This document shows, piece by piece, positions 32,710 to 40,437 of a stretch of DNA of 64,000 nucleotides. Below the pieces are notes generated by a model. The model saw nothing but the letters and a program-made list of their open reading frames with translations. It did not search any database and was not told where the DNA came from. The stretch spans positions 62,001-126,000 of the forward strand of contig JANSYR010000015.1 in assembly GCA_024742285.1 (NCBI GenBank), in the 5' to 3' direction. Both the position numbers and the translations under genes were made by a program. Every line of letters starts with the position of its first letter. Position 1 is the stretch's first letter. Source of the stretch: a bacterium. GTDB lineage: Bacteria > Myxococcota_A > UBA9160 > UBA4427.

Positions 32710-34155
32710 CTACCGGCCGGGCACGCGGTACCGCCCCCGACTGACCACCCCCACGATTCCACGCGTATTCCGGATGTCGTCGAGCGGGTTCGCCTCGAGC
32801 AGCACGAGATCGGCGAGCTGGCCCGATGCGATCCGACCGACGCGATCCTCGATTCCCATGAAGCGCGCCGGCGCGCGCACGGACGCCGCGAGGGCTTCGG
32901 CGGGCTCGAGTCCCGCCTCGACGAGCAGCTCGAGCTCCCGGTGGAGACTCTCGCCCGGGATCGCCAGGCGGATCGGCGTGTCCGTCCCCGCGCCGATCGG
33001 AACGCCGGCGGCGTCCATCCGGCCGACGAGGGAGAGGCTCCAGTCGGCGAAGCGCTGATCGCGCTCGCCCTCCTCGGCGAGCTCGCGCACCTTGGCGTCC
33101 CAGCGCACGCGGACGTCCTCCGGCAGGGCTTGCGCGGCGCGCGCCCAGACCGGATTCCGATCCGGACGCGCGCGATTGAACGCGTTCAGACGAAGCGTCG
33201 GGACCTGCATCGTCCCCCGGAGCGCGACCAGGACCTCGTCGCAGCGATCGGCGTCGTGATCGGCGATCGCCGCGAAGCGCTGGGCGTCGTGGAGCGACTT
33301 GCGGAGCGGATGGCCCCGAGGCGAGGTCCACGCGTCGAGCGCCCGCACCCGCTCGGCGTGGAGCGCGCGCCAGTCGCGCGCGCAGGCGAGCTCGACGTTG
33401 CGGAGGTGCTCCATCGAGTCGACCCGCGGTCCCGCGACGTCGGCGGTCAGGCTGAGAGGGACGTGGGAGGCGATCGGCAGCCCGTGCTCCCGCGCAGCGG
33501 TCACGAGCGCGTCGAAGGCATCGGGCGAGACGAGCTCGTAGATCTTGATCAGATCCGCTCCGCCCTCCGCCAGGAGGGCCACCTGTCGCGCCGCCGCCTC
33601 GGCATCCGGGATCGAGGTCCCGAGCGCCGGCTGGGACGGACTCGCGCCGTCATAGACGACGAGCCGACCGTCGAGCAGGGGCCCGGACAGGAAGATGCGC
33701 GGCGACGCCGCGTCCGAGGCGCGCAGCCCCTCGCGCATCGCGACCAGCGTCTCGAAGTGGCCGCCGGTGTCGCGGACGCTCGTGATCCCCCAGTCGAGAA
33801 AGAGGCCGGACATCGCGTCGGTCAGCGCCTCGTCGTAGAGGAAATGGACGTGGGCGTCCCAGAGCCCGGGGATCAGGAACCGGTCCCGGCCGTCGACCGT
33901 GCGCTCCGCCGGCGGCCCCTTTCCCGACGGCCCGACCCAGACGATCCGGTCCCCGGCGACGACCACGCGGTGGTCGGGGCGCTCGAAGATGAGGACGTCG
34001 CCCTCCGCCGTGTCGTCGATCTCGACCTCGATCACGGTCACGTCCTCGATCGCGAGGGCGGCGACGATCGGCGTCCGCCGGCGTGACTCCGCGCAGCTCG
34101 AGAGGACGAGCCCGAGCGCGAGAAGCGCGCTCCCCCACCGAATCCACTGCGCCAC
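32710..34155 (-). CDS. Amidohydrolase lipoprotein (imidazolonepropionase/prolidase-like)
   Basis: A 481-residue secreted amidohydrolase. The start is a GTG at 34155, supported by AAGGAGG about 8 bases upstream; the resulting N-terminus ends in a lipobox LVLSSC, whereas upstream starts would bury this. The metal centre is recognisable: HVHF in LIPGLWDAHVHFLYDEAL, a Lys in GGADLIKIYEL, His in PIASHVPLSL and SMEHLRNVE, and Asp in GAGTDTPIRL. The domain order (composite sandwich, then barrel, then LADLVLLEANPLDDI) is that of imidazolonepropionase-like and Xaa-Pro dipeptidase relatives. The substrate is unknown; the lipid anchor places it on the outer or inner membrane. Confidence 0.85.
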   Translation of the reverse strand: MAQWIRWGSALLALGLVLSSCAESRRRTPIVAALAIEDVTVIEVEIDDTAEGDVLIFERPDHRVVVAGDRIVWVGPSGKGPPAERTVDGRDRFLIPGLWDAHVHFLYDEALTDAMSGLFLDWGITSVRDTGGHFETLVAMREGLRASDAASPRIFLSGPLLDGRLVVYDGASPSQPALGTSIPDAEAAARQVALLAEGGADLIKIYELVSPDAFDALVTAAREHGLPIASHVPLSLTADVAGPRVDSMEHLRNVELACARDWRALHAERVRALDAWTSPRGHPLRKSLHDAQRFAAIADHDADRCDEVLVALRGTMQVPTLRLNAFNRARPDRNPVWARAAQALPEDVRVRWDAKVRELAEEGERDQRFADWSLSLVGRMDAAGVPIGAGTDTPIRLAIPGESLHRELELLVEAGLEPAEALAASVRAPARFMGIEDRVGRIASGQLADLVLLEANPLDDIRNTRGIVGVVSRGRYRVPGR

Positions 34156-34294
34156 GCCTCGATCCTCCTTCCCGTCCGCCCACTCGGGGTTTCGCCCGAG
34201 GCACCCGTCCGGTCGAGTCCGGAATTTCAGGAGCCTGCGGGATTCCGCGAGGTTATCCCTTATCCCCGCGTCCCCGCTGCCGATCCAGGAAGGG

Positions 34295-35569
34295 ATGACG
34301 TCCGTCCCCGAACCGTCCCACACGGGCCGCACCCTGCTCCTGCTCGGCTGCGGCGCGGAGCAGATCGAAGCCCTGCGGATCGCGCGCGAGCTCGGCTATC
34401 GCACCGTCGCGTTCGACAACGACCCGAACGCCGTGGGCCGCGCGCACGCCGATGCCTTCCGGCGCGTGGACCTCAAGAACCCGACCGAGCTTCTCGGACA
34501 CGCCGAGCTGGTCGCGCCCGACGGCGTCTTCGTCCACGCCGCGGAGCTCGCGGTCGAAGCCGCGACCGTGGCCGACGCCTTCGACCTGCCCGGGATCTCC
34601 GTCGACGCGGCCCTCACCGCCACCGCCAAGGAGCGACGGATCGCCCGCTTCGCCGAAGCAGGCCTCCGCACCCCGGGCTTTCGCGTCCTCGACCGCGAAG
34701 CGCCGGTCGGCGCATGGCAGGAAGCGGCCCGCGAGATCGGCTTCCCCTGTGTCCTGAAGCCGACGGACCAGGCCGGCGCGCGCGGGGTCGAACGGATCGA
34801 CGACGAAGCCGGCGTGGCCGCCTACCACGCGCGCCGCACCCGCTTCGCCTGCCCTCGCTTCGTCTGCGAGCAGCGACTCGAAGGCCTCGAATTGTCGACG
34901 GAGAGCGTGCGCGCCGGCGGAAAGATCCGGCACCACGCCATCGCTCTCCGCCACTACGACACGACGGCGCACTACGCCCCCGCCTTCATCGAGGACGGAC
35001 ACTCCCTCCCCTACCGCCTGCCCGCAGCGCTTCGCACCGGGATCGAGGCGCTGATCGAGCGTGCCTTCGACGTGCTCGGGATCCCGGACGGCGTGCTCAA
35101 GGGCGACCTGCTGATCGATCCGGAAGGAGGCGTCTTCGTCCTCGAGATGGCCGCGCGGACCAGCGGAGGCCGCTTCGCCGACACCGTCGTTCCCCTCGGC
35201 ACCGGCGTGAACATCCTCTATCCCTTGATCGAGCTGGCGATGGGCGACGCGTTCTCGCGGGACTGGTTCACGCCGACGCACGAGGTCGGCGTGTCCCAGC
35301 GCTTCTTCCTCCACGACGCCCCCGGTCGCGTGCGGCGATGGCCCCTGCTCCGCCAGCTCGTCGCGCGCCCCTGGGTGAGCGACTGGTCGATCGACGACGC
35401 GCGCTTCGCGTCCGGGATCCTCCCGCGGATCGAGAGCCACCGCGAACGCCTCGGCTACGTCATCTGCACCGGCGAGACCCGGGAGCAGGCCGACGCGCGC
35501 GCGCTCGAGATCACCCGGGACTTCGCCCGCGCACTCGAACTCGACGTCCTCGAGGAAGCCGAAAGATGA
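34295..35569 (+). CDS. ATP-grasp domain ligase
   Basis: A 424-residue protein with the ATP-grasp order: an N-terminal Rossmann-like preATP domain (LLLLGCGAEQIEALRIAREL), the ATP-binding strand IGFPCVLKPTDQAGARGVER, and the Mg-site segment GVLKGDLLIDPEGGVFVLEM with AARTSGG. Such enzymes activate a carboxylate as acyl phosphate and join it to an amine, thiol or hydroxyl. It resembles the carbamoyl-phosphate-synthase-like group often found in natural product and surface sugar loci. A C-terminal 110-residue region (FFLHDAPGRVRRW and following) is a typical extra lid. The ATG at 34295 is preceded by AGGAAGGG. Its TGA overlaps the next ATG (ATGA, 35566-35569). Confidence 0.83.
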   Translation: MTSVPEPSHTGRTLLLLGCGAEQIEALRIARELGYRTVAFDNDPNAVGRAHADAFRRVDLKNPTELLGHAELVAPDGVFVHAAELAVEAATVADAFDLPGISVDAALTATAKERRIARFAEAGLRTPGFRVLDREAPVGAWQEAAREIGFPCVLKPTDQAGARGVERIDDEAGVAAYHARRTRFACPRFVCEQRLEGLELSTESVRAGGKIRHHAIALRHYDTTAHYAPAFIEDGHSLPYRLPAALRTGIEALIERAFDVLGIPDGVLKGDLLIDPEGGVFVLEMAARTSGGRFADTVVPLGTGVNILYPLIELAMGDAFSRDWFTPTHEVGVSQRFFLHDAPGRVRRWPLLRQLVARPWVSDWSIDDARFASGILPRIESHRERLGYVICTGETREQADARALEITRDFARALELDVLEEAER

Positions 35570-36702
35570 GCGGATCGCGAGAGGTCGTCCTCGTCGGAAC
35601 CGGCGCGTTCGTCACGCGCGACGCCTGGGGCCCGGGCGTACTGGCGCGAAGCATCGCGCAGTGGTGTGGGGACCAACCGGAACGGCCGTGGACGCTGACC
35701 GTCGTGCACCGTTCGACGACGGGCCGCGAGCGCTTCGAGCGGGAGTGGAAGGCGATCGAGGCCGAGCTGCCCCGACTCCCGACCCTGCGATTCCTGTCCG
35801 CCGGCGACGACGCGCTCGCAGACCACGTCGCGGGCGCACGGGCCCTCTTCGTCTGCGTCCCGGACGACGCGCACGCCGCCTACGTAGAGCTGGGGATCGC
35901 GGCACGAACCCCCACCTGGATCGTGAAGCCGCTCACCGGCGAAGGCCCCGCCTCCGCGGCTCTCGTCGAGGCGGCGCGGGTCGCGGACGTCCCGGTCTGG
36001 GTCGACTACCACAAGCGCTTCGACGTCTCGAATCGAGGGCTGCGCGACGCCCTCGATCGCGAAGAGCTCGGCGCGCCGCGTCTCGTCAGCGTGCGCTACT
36101 CCCAGCCCCGCGACCTCCCCCTCGACGGCTTCACCTGGGCCGGCGGAACCGACGTCTTCACCTACATCGGTTGTCACTACGTCGATCAGCTCTTCTACGT
36201 GATGCCCGGCCTCGAGATCGAGCACGTCGAGGCCCACGGGCTGCGCGGCCCGGTCCACGCGCAGCACGGCGGTCAGGCCTTCGACACCGTGCTCGCGCGC
36301 TTCGACGGCCGATGGCGCGATCGCCCGCTCAGCGCCCAGTTCGAGGTCGGCTGGTGCAACCCGCTCGGCAGCCCGACCAAGAGCCTGCAGATCGTCGAGG
36401 TCGCCTGCGACGGCGGGCGCCATTTTCTCGACCAGGCGCGGCGCGGGAGCGAGCGCTGGAGCGACCAGGGCGTGCACGTCCCGAACCCCTGGTTCTTCTC
36501 CCGGGTCCATGACCCGCTCACCGGCTCCGCCCGCTACCAGGGCTACGGCTACGACTCCGTCCGACACTTCCTCGACTTCACCGGCGAGAGCGCCGAGATC
36601 CAGGCCGCGATGCGCACGAATGCTTCGCTTCCCTGGATCGAGGAGGCGGCGCGGGTCGACGCGGTCCTCGACCGCGTGCGCGAGGCCCTGGAGGACGCCT
36701 AG
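35566..36702 (+). CDS. Gfo/Idh/MocA family oxidoreductase
   Basis: A 378-residue NAD(P)-dependent enzyme. The N-terminal Rossmann domain opens with VVLVGTGAFVTRDAWGPGV, and CVPDDAHAAYVELGIAART followed by WIVKPLTGEG is the usual EKP-type motif, here VKP, whose Lys is catalytic in the family. VDYHKRFDVSNRGLRD resembles the second signature. The C-terminal mixed-sheet domain contains YIGCHYVDQLFYVMPGLEIE. Family members oxidise or reduce sugars, inositols or related ketones. Coupled by ATGA to the ATP-grasp gene, it probably modifies the same metabolite. The exact reaction cannot be told. Confidence 0.83.
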   Translation: MSGSREVVLVGTGAFVTRDAWGPGVLARSIAQWCGDQPERPWTLTVVHRSTTGRERFEREWKAIEAELPRLPTLRFLSAGDDALADHVAGARALFVCVPDDAHAAYVELGIAARTPTWIVKPLTGEGPASAALVEAARVADVPVWVDYHKRFDVSNRGLRDALDREELGAPRLVSVRYSQPRDLPLDGFTWAGGTDVFTYIGCHYVDQLFYVMPGLEIEHVEAHGLRGPVHAQHGGQAFDTVLARFDGRWRDRPLSAQFEVGWCNPLGSPTKSLQIVEVACDGGRHFLDQARRGSERWSDQGVHVPNPWFFSRVHDPLTGSARYQGYGYDSVRHFLDFTGESAEIQAAMRTNASLPWIEEAARVDAVLDRVREALEDA

Positions 36703-36742
36703 CGTCGTCGTCCGTCGGATTTCGAGGCGCCTGTGCTATTCG

Positions 36743-37996
36743 ATGGCGGCGCCCGCTCCGAGGACCACCCCCTTGGCCGACCCCGGATTCGTCAGCGGAA
36801 TCAGCGTGCTCCGCCAGCGGGACGTCGCGCGTCTCTTCGTCGCCTACCTCGTGACCTACACGGGGACGGCAATGGCGCCGATCGCGCTGGCGTTCGGCCT
36901 GCTCGAGATGACGGGATCGACCCGCGAGACCGGGATCGTCGTGGCGGCGCCGACCGCGGCGGGCGTCGCCGTCCTCCTCGTGGGCGGCGCGATCGCGGAT
37001 CGGACGTCGCGCAAGCGGGTGATCGTCCTGGCGGAGAGCCTCGCCATGGCCGCGCAGCTCGCGATCGCAGCGCTCCTGCTCTCGGGGACCGCGTCGATCC
37101 CGCTGCTGACGGGGCTCATGCTCGTGAACGGCACGGCGATGGCGTTCAACGCGCCGGCCTCGGCAGGACTGATCGTCCAGATCGCCGCGCGCGAGGAGCT
37201 CCAGGCGGTCAACGCGCTCCTCGGCATGGCCCGCAACAGCGCCCTCGCGATCGGCGCGGCCGTCGGCGGCGTGCTGGTCGCGACCGTCGGCGCCGGCTGG
37301 ACCCTCGCGATCGATGGCCTCTCGTTCGGCTTCTCGGCGCTGCTGATCGCGACGCTGCGCCCGCGGGTGCAGCGCACACCCGAGAGCGCTTCGATGATCG
37401 AGGATCTGCGCGCCGGAGCGCGCGAGTTCTTCTCGCACACCTGGCTCTGGGTGATCGTCGCGCAGTTCTCGCTGATCGTGGCCGTCCACGAGAGCGTGTT
37501 CGGCTTGATGGGGCCCGCGGTCGCCCGCGAGACCCTCCGAGGCTCGACGGACTGGGGCACGATCGCCGCCGTCTTCGGGCTCGGCACGCTCGTGGGTGGA
37601 CTCCTCAGCCTCCGCATCCAGCCGAAGCACCCGATGCGAACGGCCACCCTGCTGACGTTCACCTTCGTACTGATCCCGGCGGCGCTCTCGGTTCCCCTTC
37701 CGGTCCCCGTGATCGCCGCGGCGGCCTTCGTCGAAGGCGCGACGGGCAACCTCTTCGCGGTCCTCTGGTACACCACGCTCCAGAAGAAGATCCCGGAAGA
37801 CATGCTCTCCCGGGTGAGCGCGTACGATCACCTGGGCTCGATCGCCCTCGCGCCGATCGGCATCGTCGTGGCCGGCGTCCTCTTCGAGGAGCTCGGGGCG
37901 CGCGCGACCCTCTGGCTCTGCGTCGCGACCGTCCTCCTTCCGACGATCGCCGCGTTCTCGGTCCACGACGTGCGCCACATGACGAGCGCCGACTGA
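36743..37996 (+). CDS. MFS transporter (drug/siderophore exporter-like)
   Basis: A 417-residue membrane protein with about twelve predicted helices and the MFS loop motif GGAIADRTSRKRVIVLAES between helices two and three. The N-terminal half resembles efflux proteins of the EntS/NreB kind (RLFVAYLVTYTGTAMAPIAL). The ATG at 36743 lies 40 bases after the oxidoreductase stop. Neighbouring a ligase and an oxidoreductase, it is a plausible exporter of their product, by analogy with ligase-exporter pairs such as BacD-BacE; that is inference. A PaiB-like gene follows 17 bases later. Confidence 0.87.
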   Translation: MAAPAPRTTPLADPGFVSGISVLRQRDVARLFVAYLVTYTGTAMAPIALAFGLLEMTGSTRETGIVVAAPTAAGVAVLLVGGAIADRTSRKRVIVLAESLAMAAQLAIAALLLSGTASIPLLTGLMLVNGTAMAFNAPASAGLIVQIAAREELQAVNALLGMARNSALAIGAAVGGVLVATVGAGWTLAIDGLSFGFSALLIATLRPRVQRTPESASMIEDLRAGAREFFSHTWLWVIVAQFSLIVAVHESVFGLMGPAVARETLRGSTDWGTIAAVFGLGTLVGGLLSLRIQPKHPMRTATLLTFTFVLIPAALSVPLPVPVIAAAAFVEGATGNLFAVLWYTTLQKKIPEDMLSRVSAYDHLGSIALAPIGIVVAGVLFEELGARATLWLCVATVLLPTIAAFSVHDVRHMTSAD

Positions 37997-38013
37997 AGCG
38001 CTCCGGAGATCCC

Positions 38014-38655
38014 ATGTCCCTCTACGTTCCCGAGCACTTCCAAAGCGCCGATTCGGCGACCGCGCAGGATCTGATCGAGAGGCACCCGTTGTGCCTGCTC
38101 GTATCCGTCGAAGAGGGCACGCCACGCTTCAGTCCCGTCCCCGTTCTTCTCGATCGCGACCGGGGCGCGCTCGGACGGCTCCGTTTCCACCTCGCCCGGG
38201 CGAACCCGCAGAGCGCGCGACTCGCCGAGCGAAGCGAGGCGAGCCTGGTCTTCCAGGGCCCCGAGACCTACATCTCTCCCGACTGGTACGTCGACACGAG
38301 GCTCCCCCCGACCTGGAACTACGAGCTCGTGATCGCGCGCGGCCGGGCGACACCGCTCGACGACGACGAGCTCCTTCGGCTCCTCGGGGACCTCTCCCAT
38401 GACCAGGAGCGACGCCTCGACAAGGTGCCGTGGACGATGGCGAAGATGGGCGAAGACCGCGTCCGAGGACTCCTGCGTGGAATCATCGGCTTCGCTTTCG
38501 AGATCGATCGGCTCGAAGCCAAGTCGAAACTCAGCCAGAACCGCTCGCCCGCGGACCGGGCCTCCGTTCGGCGAGCGCTCGCGGCGCAGCCAGGGCCGCG
38601 GGCGCACGAAGTGGCCGCTCGCATGGCCGCCGTCGACCCGGACCGCGAGGCGTGA
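38014..38655 (+). CDS. FMN-binding negative transcriptional regulator (PaiB-like)
   Basis: A 213-residue split-barrel protein. MSLYVPEHFQSADSATAQDL is the classical PaiB start, and PETYISPDWYVDTRLPPTWN followed by YELVIARGRATPL is the family's diagnostic segment; the ending NRSPADRASVRRALA also fits (usual KLSQNR motif present). PaiB proteins bind FMN and repress sporulation or protease genes in Bacillus, but most homologues are uncharacterised. A short Shine-Dalgarno GGAG lies at 38005-38008. It is the last gene of the ATP-grasp/oxidoreductase/MFS set, possibly controlling it. Confidence 0.88.
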   Translation: MSLYVPEHFQSADSATAQDLIERHPLCLLVSVEEGTPRFSPVPVLLDRDRGALGRLRFHLARANPQSARLAERSEASLVFQGPETYISPDWYVDTRLPPTWNYELVIARGRATPLDDDELLRLLGDLSHDQERRLDKVPWTMAKMGEDRVRGLLRGIIGFAFEIDRLEAKSKLSQNRSPADRASVRRALAAQPGPRAHEVAARMAAVDPDREA

Positions 38656-38662
38656 TCCCCCG

Positions 38663-39157
38663 CTAGAGCGTGATCCAGACCGCTTCGCCGTGCCGACTGG
38701 CGCGCTGGAACACGTCGACGAGGCGCACGAGGGTCACCTGGTACTCGCGATTGTGGACGGCGACGCGGTACTCGGTCGGCGGCGCGTCGCCTTCCCGGCC
38801 GACGACGAACTCGTGTTGCGCGCCGTAGGTCTGTCGATCGGCCGCGTACAGGACGCTGCGTGCGTCCTCGATCAGCGCGGGGCGGAAGAGGACCGGCGCC
38901 CCGCTCCCGAGCGTCCCCTCGAGCCCGAGCGCGTTCAGCCGGTCGACGACGCCGTGACCGACCATCGCGTGCAGGGAGTTCGCCGAGATCCGGACGCGCT
39001 CCTCGAGCTCGAACTCGCCTTCGGCATCCAGACGTACGAGACCCGCCGCGCCCGTCCGAAAGGGCGGCGGCGGGTCGTCGAAGTCGTGGGCCGCCAGATA
39101 GATGCGCTGGACCGATTCCTCGGCCCGCCGGAGCGACTCCTCGGAAGGGGCGCGCAT
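38663..39157 (-). CDS. Hypothetical protein
   Basis: A 164-residue cytoplasmic protein with no recognised domain. The first 60 residues are charged and helical (SEESLRRAEESVQRIYLAAH, then FRTGAAGLVRLDAEGEFELE). The C-terminal half alternates strands and ends RLVDVFQRASRHGEAVWITL. A longer start at 39244 would overlap the adjacent amidohydrolase, so I prefer the ATG at 39157. It lies 32 bases downstream of that amidohydrolase on the same strand and is probably co-transcribed. I recognise no catalytic motif; a function should not be assigned. Confidence 0.55.
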   Translation of the reverse strand: MRAPSEESLRRAEESVQRIYLAAHDFDDPPPPFRTGAAGLVRLDAEGEFELEERVRISANSLHAMVGHGVVDRLNALGLEGTLGSGAPVLFRPALIEDARSVLYAADRQTYGAQHEFVVGREGDAPPTEYRVAVHNREYQVTLVRLVDVFQRASRHGEAVWITL

Positions 39158-39189
39158 GCGTCTCTCGGCCTCGTCCGGCGAGCGCGCGC

Positions 39190-40437
39190 TCAGGCGGAGG
39201 CCTGGGCCTCGAGCTCGGCGAGCGCGCCCCGGAACAGGTAGCACTGCGAATCCCGCGGAATGTCTTCGGCCGGAAGCGGCGTGTTCACCTGCTCGGGCGT
39301 CGGACCGTGTTCCTTGGCTCGCACGCGAAGCGCATCGAGGTCGAAGTCGTAGAGCGCCGCCGCGTTCTCCCCGAAGATCTTTCGGCGGTCCGACTCGGAC
39401 ACGTCCGAGAAGGTGAGCCGCAGCGACTCGAGGTTGTACGGGAACGTTCCCTCGTAGTGGGGGTAGTCGTTCCCCCAGCAGACCTTATCCACGCCGACGA
39501 GATCGATGCCCTCGAGCTCCTGCTTGCTCGGGAAGCTCGCCCCGTAGTAGCAGTGCTCGCGGGCGTACTCGCTCGGGAGGCGCTTCAGGCCCCACTCCTC
39601 GTCGTCGTACATCATCTCGCCGATCGCGCCGGCCTTCACGCCCATGTGGATGCGGTCGAGCTGGGCGAGCATTTCGGGGGCCCAGGAGCAGCCCGACTCG
39701 GTCAGGATGTACTTGAGCTTCGGGAAGCGCTCGTAGACGCCGCTCATCAGGAGATGGCGGTAGCCCGCGCGGCAGTAGAACGACACCTCCGAGATCCAGA
39801 GAGCGTCGGCGAGGGCCCCCTCACCGAAGTCCGGCGCGCCCTGCCCCGAGTGCTGGTTGATCACGAGACCGTGATCCTGGATCGCGGCGAAGACGCGGTC
39901 CCACGCGCGGTCGTAGAGCGGCGTGAGCCAATGGGCGTCCGGCGGAATCAGCGGAAGGAGCACGCCGCCGCGCAGTCCGGCCTTCGCGATCCACTCGATG
40001 TCCTTGACCGCCTCGTCGAGATCGTTGGGCAGGATCACCCCGATCCCCGCGCGTCGAACCGGATCCTCGGCGCAGAAATCCGCCAGCCAGCGATTGTGGG
40101 CACGGACGCCGGCGAGGCAGCGTTCGTACTCCTCGGGCTTCGGCGGCCCCGCCGTCACGATGCTCTTCCGGTAGAAAGGCGGCACGGTATTCGGGAACAC
40201 GACCTCACCGACGACGCCCTGGCCGTCCTGGTCGGTGTTGCGGATGTCGAAGTCCCAATTGCGCTTCTTCTTGGAGCCGTAGTGCTCCTCGCCCGGGTTC
40301 TTGTATCCCCCGCGCCAGTCGTCGAAGGCCGCTCGGTACTCGGGATCGAGGTACTCGCGATACTGGGCGTGGGATCCGCCGGCGTGGGTGTCCGAGGTGA
40401 TCAGGATGTAGGGGTCGTGGGTGGTCGAGTCCGACAA
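39190..40437 (-). CDS. Amidohydrolase family 2 (TIM-barrel metal hydrolase)
   Basis: A 415-residue enzyme. The start is probably the TTG at 40437: the upstream GGAG is 7 bases away, and the protein then begins SDSTTHDPYILITSDTHAGG with the metal-site DTHAG motif of amidohydrolase-2 proteins close to the N-terminus. No suitable ATG exists; the nearest lies 92 codons upstream in low-quality sequence. Later metal and catalytic segments are LVINQHSGQGAPDFGEG, ILTESGCSWAP and CWGNDYPHYEGTFPY (terminal Asp). The family includes decarboxylases and ring hydrolases. The long KNPGEEHYGSKKKRNWDFDI insertion is seen in a subgroup common in marine deltaproteobacterial and actinobacterial degraders. The substrate is unknown. 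Confidence 0.83.
   Translation of the reverse strand: MSDSTTHDPYILITSDTHAGGSHAQYREYLDPEYRAAFDDWRGGYKNPGEEHYGSKKKRNWDFDIRNTDQDGQGVVGEVVFPNTVPPFYRKSIVTAGPPKPEEYERCLAGVRAHNRWLADFCAEDPVRRAGIGVILPNDLDEAVKDIEWIAKAGLRGGVLLPLIPPDAHWLTPLYDRAWDRVFAAIQDHGLVINQHSGQGAPDFGEGALADALWISEVSFYCRAGYRHLLMSGVYERFPKLKYILTESGCSWAPEMLAQLDRIHMGVKAGAIGEMMYDDEEWGLKRLPSEYAREHCYYGASFPSKQELEGIDLVGVDKVCWGNDYPHYEGTFPYNLESLRLTFSDVSESDRRKIFGENAAALYDFDLDALRVRAKEHGPTPEQVNTPLPAEDIPRDSQCYLFRGALAELEAQASA

Follow-up and report, generated by a model that had tools for sequence, protein, structure and literature searches.

An ATP-grasp ligase and a Gfo/Idh/MocA oxidoreductase form a rare, conserved gene pair that probably serves the decoration of nonulosonic-acid glycans

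Do four closely spaced genes in a Myxococcota_A genome form one biosynthetic system, or do only some of them belong together? The genes lie within the 64,000-nucleotide stretch of DNA that was analysed (the window; contig JANSYR010000015.1); the host genome comprises 6.5 Mb in 56 contigs. An earlier note had read them as a make-and-export pathway for a ligated small molecule. The ORF coordinates reproduce exactly the arrangement it described: four plus-strand genes, the first two joined by an ATGA overlap, with 40 bases between the oxidoreductase and MFS genes and 17 bases between the MFS and PaiB-like genes (Table 1). The families (ATP-grasp, Gfo/Idh/MocA, hereafter Gfo, MFS and PaiB), assigned here by Pfam/NCBIfam profile searches, had also been named correctly. 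GC3 values of 0.84-0.94 are coding-like for all four genes.

Table 1. Genes of the locus and its immediate neighbours, in positions of the window
Product	Position	Strand	Length (aa)	Remarks
Amidohydrolase, divergent	32710..34332	-		Conserved left neighbour, present in L007 and L008; true start probably below 34295
ATP-grasp carboxylate-amine ligase (gene 1)	34295..35569	+	424	Core of pair; LAL_C2 and ATP-grasp_4
Gfo/Idh/MocA oxidoreductase (gene 2)	35566..36702	+	378	Core of pair; ATGA overlap with ATP-grasp gene; GFO_IDH_MocA_C3
MFS drug/metabolite exporter (gene 3)	36743..37996	+	417	MFS_1/MFS_3 (2A0121, EntS/Tet(V)-like); lineage-specific, outside pair
PaiB-like FMN_bind_2 protein (gene 4)	38014..38655	+	213	Match 1.3e-45; lineage-specific, outside pair
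193-aa protein	38663..39244	-	193	Conserved right neighbour, directly after Gfo in L007 and L008; no Pfam/NCBIfam match

Genes 1 and 2 were also found in two other genomes of the genus, G056 (PAQX01000004.1; loci L005/L008) and G061 (JAUIMK010000210.1; loci L006/L007). Both share with the window a common gene order, ABC-F ATPase, amidohydrolase, ATP-grasp, Gfo, 193-aa protein and second amidohydrolase, at 69-95% identity. The MFS and PaiB genes are absent between Gfo and the 193-aa gene in both genomes: in G061 a few bases separate the Gfo stop codon from the end of the 193-aa gene, and in G056 the distance is about 175 bases. They are absent beside the pair at the loci outside the genus as well. 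Since both relatives keep the flanks without MFS and PaiB, the conserved unit is the ATP-grasp-Gfo pair, and the MFS and PaiB genes are a lineage-specific addition. The four-gene order, which the earlier note had proposed to look for in other genomes, thus breaks down even inside the genus; it was found in the window's genome only, and a four-gene cassette as one conserved system was ruled out by synteny.

The shared strand, the short gaps and the lack of a terminator-like site between genes 2 and 3 indicate that the four genes may be co-transcribed, as would be expected of a single make-and-export system in which PaiB acts as a regulator or as a haem enzyme on an N-hydroxylated intermediate. 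This reading is largely refuted already by the synteny described above, and we regard it as highly improbable: no N-hydroxylating enzyme was noticed on reading the ORFs of 28-46 kb, and the codon usage of PaiB is the least host-like of the four genes (0.63 versus 0.73-0.76 for the other three, by a rough measure).

Among the three genus members, the pair proteins differ from one another to about the same degree, which fits gain and loss of MFS and PaiB alike; gain is preferred on grounds of parsimony only. A search for flanking repeats around MFS and PaiB gave weak two-copy matches and no convincing boundary repeat. Genome G055 was considered as an empty site and rejected: it keeps the 193-aa gene, but the genes around it are mostly different. 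The 193-aa gene itself is kept in four of the nine genomes of the genus.

By sequence, gene 4 is a member of the haem-binding superfamily of PaiB, NohD (N-hydroxylamine dehydratase) and piperazate synthase, although databases call it FMN-binding. The histidine that serves as haem ligand in this family (PMC13274692) is kept in the HxARxNP motif, FHLARANPQ aligning with GHMARANPH of NohD and GHFARSNPQ of PaiB. The regulator-like role given to it in the earlier note is unproven, and a simple FMN regulator is unsupported, since solved relatives include haem proteins. PaiB shares the fold of the piperazate synthase family without having its N-N activity (PMC13274692). Gene 4 belongs to this family, yet it stands outside the conserved pair.

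The close spacing of genes 3 and 4 and their joint absence from the relatives could mean that they are a small unit of their own, combining an efflux pump and a haem-binding protein and placed beside the pair by chance. Such a unit, which concerns these two genes only, would be compatible with a glycan role of the pair. Searches of the other eight genus genomes with PaiB yielded nothing at E <= 1e-30, and none of its nine best relatives in the order (36-42% identity) has a related MFS gene within ~1.5 kb. No conserved MFS-PaiB link was therefore found, MFS-PaiB was rejected as a conserved pair, and we consider a separate unit somewhat unlikely.

How far does the ATP-grasp-Gfo pair extend beyond the genus? 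Gfo was found in 3 of the 331 genomes of the phylum sample, all three in this genus. A scan of the genome collection revealed full-length Gfo relatives with 37-44% identity in a Terriglobia MAG (Acidobacteriota; L009), three Kordiimonas-type genomes (Alphaproteobacteria; L010-L012), a Planctomycetota MAG (L013) and a Proteobacteria MAG (L014); half a Gfo gene with 36% identity was found at L015. The gene directly upstream of Gfo encodes an ATP-grasp protein (42-50% identity) in six of the six full cases. Relatives of the pair span 37-50% identity in Kordiimonas, Acidobacteriota, Planctomycetota and two other MAG lineages. Further sampling (331 genomes of the phylum, 385 of the Kordiimonas class, 328 and 63 of two other classes) added two distant Gfo relatives to the known cases and nothing else, and no Gfo relative matched on plasmids or phages. 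The pair is thus real and rare, and its patchy spread suggests horizontal transfer. One of the distant Gfo relatives (L110) adjoins a gene that, read by eye, resembles a sugar-acid cytidylyltransferase.

The earlier note had put the four genes forward as a candidate undescribed system. This stands for the ligase and the oxidoreductase, which are conserved across phyla, and does not extend to the exporter and PaiB. In the literature searched, a limited library, no paper describing the pair was found, while ATP-grasp genes in flagellin-glycan loci were.

In four of the five other lineages the pair is part of a pseudaminic/nonulosonic-acid or flagellin-glycan locus, and in each of them a methyltransferase gene lies upstream of it and a GH57-like gene close by; the exception is the Planctomycetota MAG, in which the pair stands alone, without adjoining glycan genes. 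The Kordiimonas run encodes a TPR protein, a short NeuB, a cytidylyltransferase/PseG fusion, a methyltransferase, an FkbM methyltransferase, ATP-grasp, Gfo, the GH57-like protein, PseB and PseC; flagellin and flagellar P-ring (FlgI) genes come next. The order in L014 is methyltransferase, ATP-grasp, Gfo, GH57-like, Maf and flagellin, and in L009 PseG, methyltransferase, ATP-grasp, Gfo, a DXP-synthase-like TPP enzyme, GH57-like and Wzy. L015 carries PseB, PseC, PseF, NeuB (PseI), PseG, a methyltransferase and, at the contig end, the first half of Gfo; L126 carries the second half of Gfo, followed by ATP-grasp and GH57-like genes. These two contig ends were matched by inference as one split Gfo gene, and the gene order is reversed, with Gfo before ATP-grasp. 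The L126 ATP-grasp protein shows 25% identity to that of the window and 34% to the second ATP-grasp protein of L014. This second L014 gene (L014:2317-4283; 33% to the window's) overlaps an SDR gene, a combination that resembles SfmC-SfmE. On a Solidesulfovibrio plasmid, a distant ATP-grasp relative is located between NeuB, pseF, FabG, transketolase halves, methyltransferase and glycoside hydrolase genes, pseB and pseC.

The genome of the window has a flagellin-glycan locus of its own on another contig (G000:C2:1-12600, within L088, C2:1-19999), encoding flagellin, PseB (above the NCBIfam cut-off), PseC-like, GH57-like, Maf/PseD-like and PseG-like proteins, a short NeuB and FliD. The NeuB gene (C2:9180-10070, about 297 aa) is the only one of its family in the genome. 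G056 has the same cluster and G061 keeps at least part of a NeuB gene. NeuB was found in 16 of 80 genomes of the order, including three of the three pair carriers (Fisher p 0.007, treating genomes as independent; p 0.12 within the genus only); as the three carriers are closely related, this co-occurrence does not amount to three independent events. G058 and G062 have NeuB and lack the pair.

No ATP-grasp-Gfo pair is present in the C2 cluster. Because the cluster lacks a pair of its own and the NeuB carriers include all three pair genomes, it is plausible that the pair contributes a step to the C2 nonulosonate pathway from a distance. Against a glycan role, no glycan genes adjoin the pair in the window's genome, elsewhere in its genus or in the Planctomycetota MAG, and the methyltransferase usually found upstream of it elsewhere is absent beside it in the window. 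The pair and its relatives are nevertheless located in, or co-occur with, nonulosonate/flagellin-glycan genes, on a separate contig in the case of the window's genome. From this context we infer the pathway in this organism: genes 1 and 2 are probably a module that decorates a nonulosonic-acid (pseudaminic-type) glycan, which is most likely that of flagellin, with MFS and PaiB as a separate lineage-specific addition.

The confidently predicted model of the ATP-grasp protein (pLDDT 88.7) gave 4dim and the L-amino acid ligases BL00235 and BacD as best folds. K155, D271, E284 and R288 are invariant in 10 relatives, and the predicted fold together with the conserved Lys and Asp/Glu metal ligands agrees with an ATP-grasp carboxylate-amine ligase. 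The likeness to BL00235, BacD/YwfE and 4dim comprises the fold and the LAL_C2 domain; identity is 16-20%, and the context of the window's relatives is glycan synthesis, not a dipeptide antibiotic.

The Gfo model (pLDDT 84.7) fits the family with TM 0.6-0.7 and has the fold with an N-terminal nucleotide-binding domain; the motifs VKP, WVDYHKRFD and GCHY are invariant. Lys121 and His204 are kept at the catalytic positions, and the canonical Asp position is occupied by Tyr200 in nine of nine proteins. A standard polyol dehydrogenase was rejected, as the Lys-Asp-His triad is incomplete. Because Tyr200 takes the place of the usual Asp, the Gfo reaction may be unusual.

That the closest solved ligases are dipeptide ligases would also suit a pair that makes an unrelated small metabolite, dipeptide-like or opine-like, and was recruited to glycan loci in other lineages only. 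Its isolated position in the genus and in the Planctomycetota MAG points the same way, as does a distant ATP-grasp relative on a Streptomyces plasmid, located in an apparent streptothricin-type antibiotic cluster. We consider this explanation unlikely in view of the glycan loci that hold the pair in four of the five other lineages, and of the flagellin nonulosonate locus kept in the window's genome and in G056, with at least part of NeuB in G061. In the Streptomyces globosus plasmid (NZ_CP030864.1; L132), the ATP-grasp gene (31%) is clustered with genes for capreomycidine synthase, arginine hydroxylase and lysine 2,3-aminomutase, a cluster that we take to be streptothricin-type from its appearance.

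As regards the preferred role in nonulosonate decoration, the context supports the pathway assignment, and the chemistry is inferred. The oxidoreductase would make or tailor a small carboxylic acid (hydroxy, amino or opine-like); the ATP-grasp enzyme would then activate the acid with ATP and form an amide bond to a sugar amino group, or acid and amine might be paired the other way round. Substrate, bond and order of steps, with Gfo making the acid and the ligase attaching it, are proposed by analogy with Shewanella SfmE and C. difficile CDR20291_0245/0246.

In Shewanella oneidensis, whose flagellin carries a methylated moiety of 236-264 Da on a pseudaminic-type sugar, deletion of the ATP-grasp gene sfmE reduces flagellin modification, part of which depends on SfmE (PMC3765264). 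The sfmABCDE system thus resembles the one proposed here in having an ATP-grasp_4 ligase needed for full flagellin modification, a short NeuB (290 aa, compared with about 297 aa in the window's genome) and methyltransferase and Maf proteins around the pathway. It differs in the partners of SfmE within the operon, which are an SDR and a TPP enzyme and no Gfo/Idh/MocA protein, and in that the pair of the window lies on a different contig from the glycan locus.

In C. difficile, two proteins encoded side by side, the ATP-grasp protein CDR20291_0245 and the ornithine-cyclodeaminase-like CDR20291_0246, are each required if the flagellin glycan is to be extended to its peptidylamido cap (PMC5207246), identified as taurinyl-Ala-Gly (PMC5207246; structure PMC5207245). 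This type B system likewise places an ATP-grasp_4 ligase beside an oxidoreductase-type gene, both required, but CDR20291_0246 is ornithine-cyclodeaminase-like and the cap sits on Fuc3N instead of a nonulosonate. SfmE and CDR20291_0245 are likened to the window's ligase through common membership of Pfam family PF13535. A Gfo/Idh/MocA gene is present in some Aeromonas islands (PMC7874193).

A more specific proposal, which we put forward tentatively, is that this sporadic cross-phylum ligase-Gfo module performs an undescribed acyl or amino-acyl decoration of nonulosonates, in which a Gfo enzyme with Tyr for Asp might catalyse non-standard, for example imine-reducing, chemistry and work far from the main locus. 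The enzymes that attach odd, variable caps to bacterial flagellin sugars are largely unknown, and the recurrent pair is a testable candidate; Kordiimonas aquimaris JCM 16665, a marine bacterium available in culture, has one homologue.

The GH57-like protein, 630-770 aa long, was observed at the nonulosonate/flagellin-glycan loci L010-L012, L014, L009, L126, L088 and L129 and may represent a conserved component in the synthesis of flagellin glycans.
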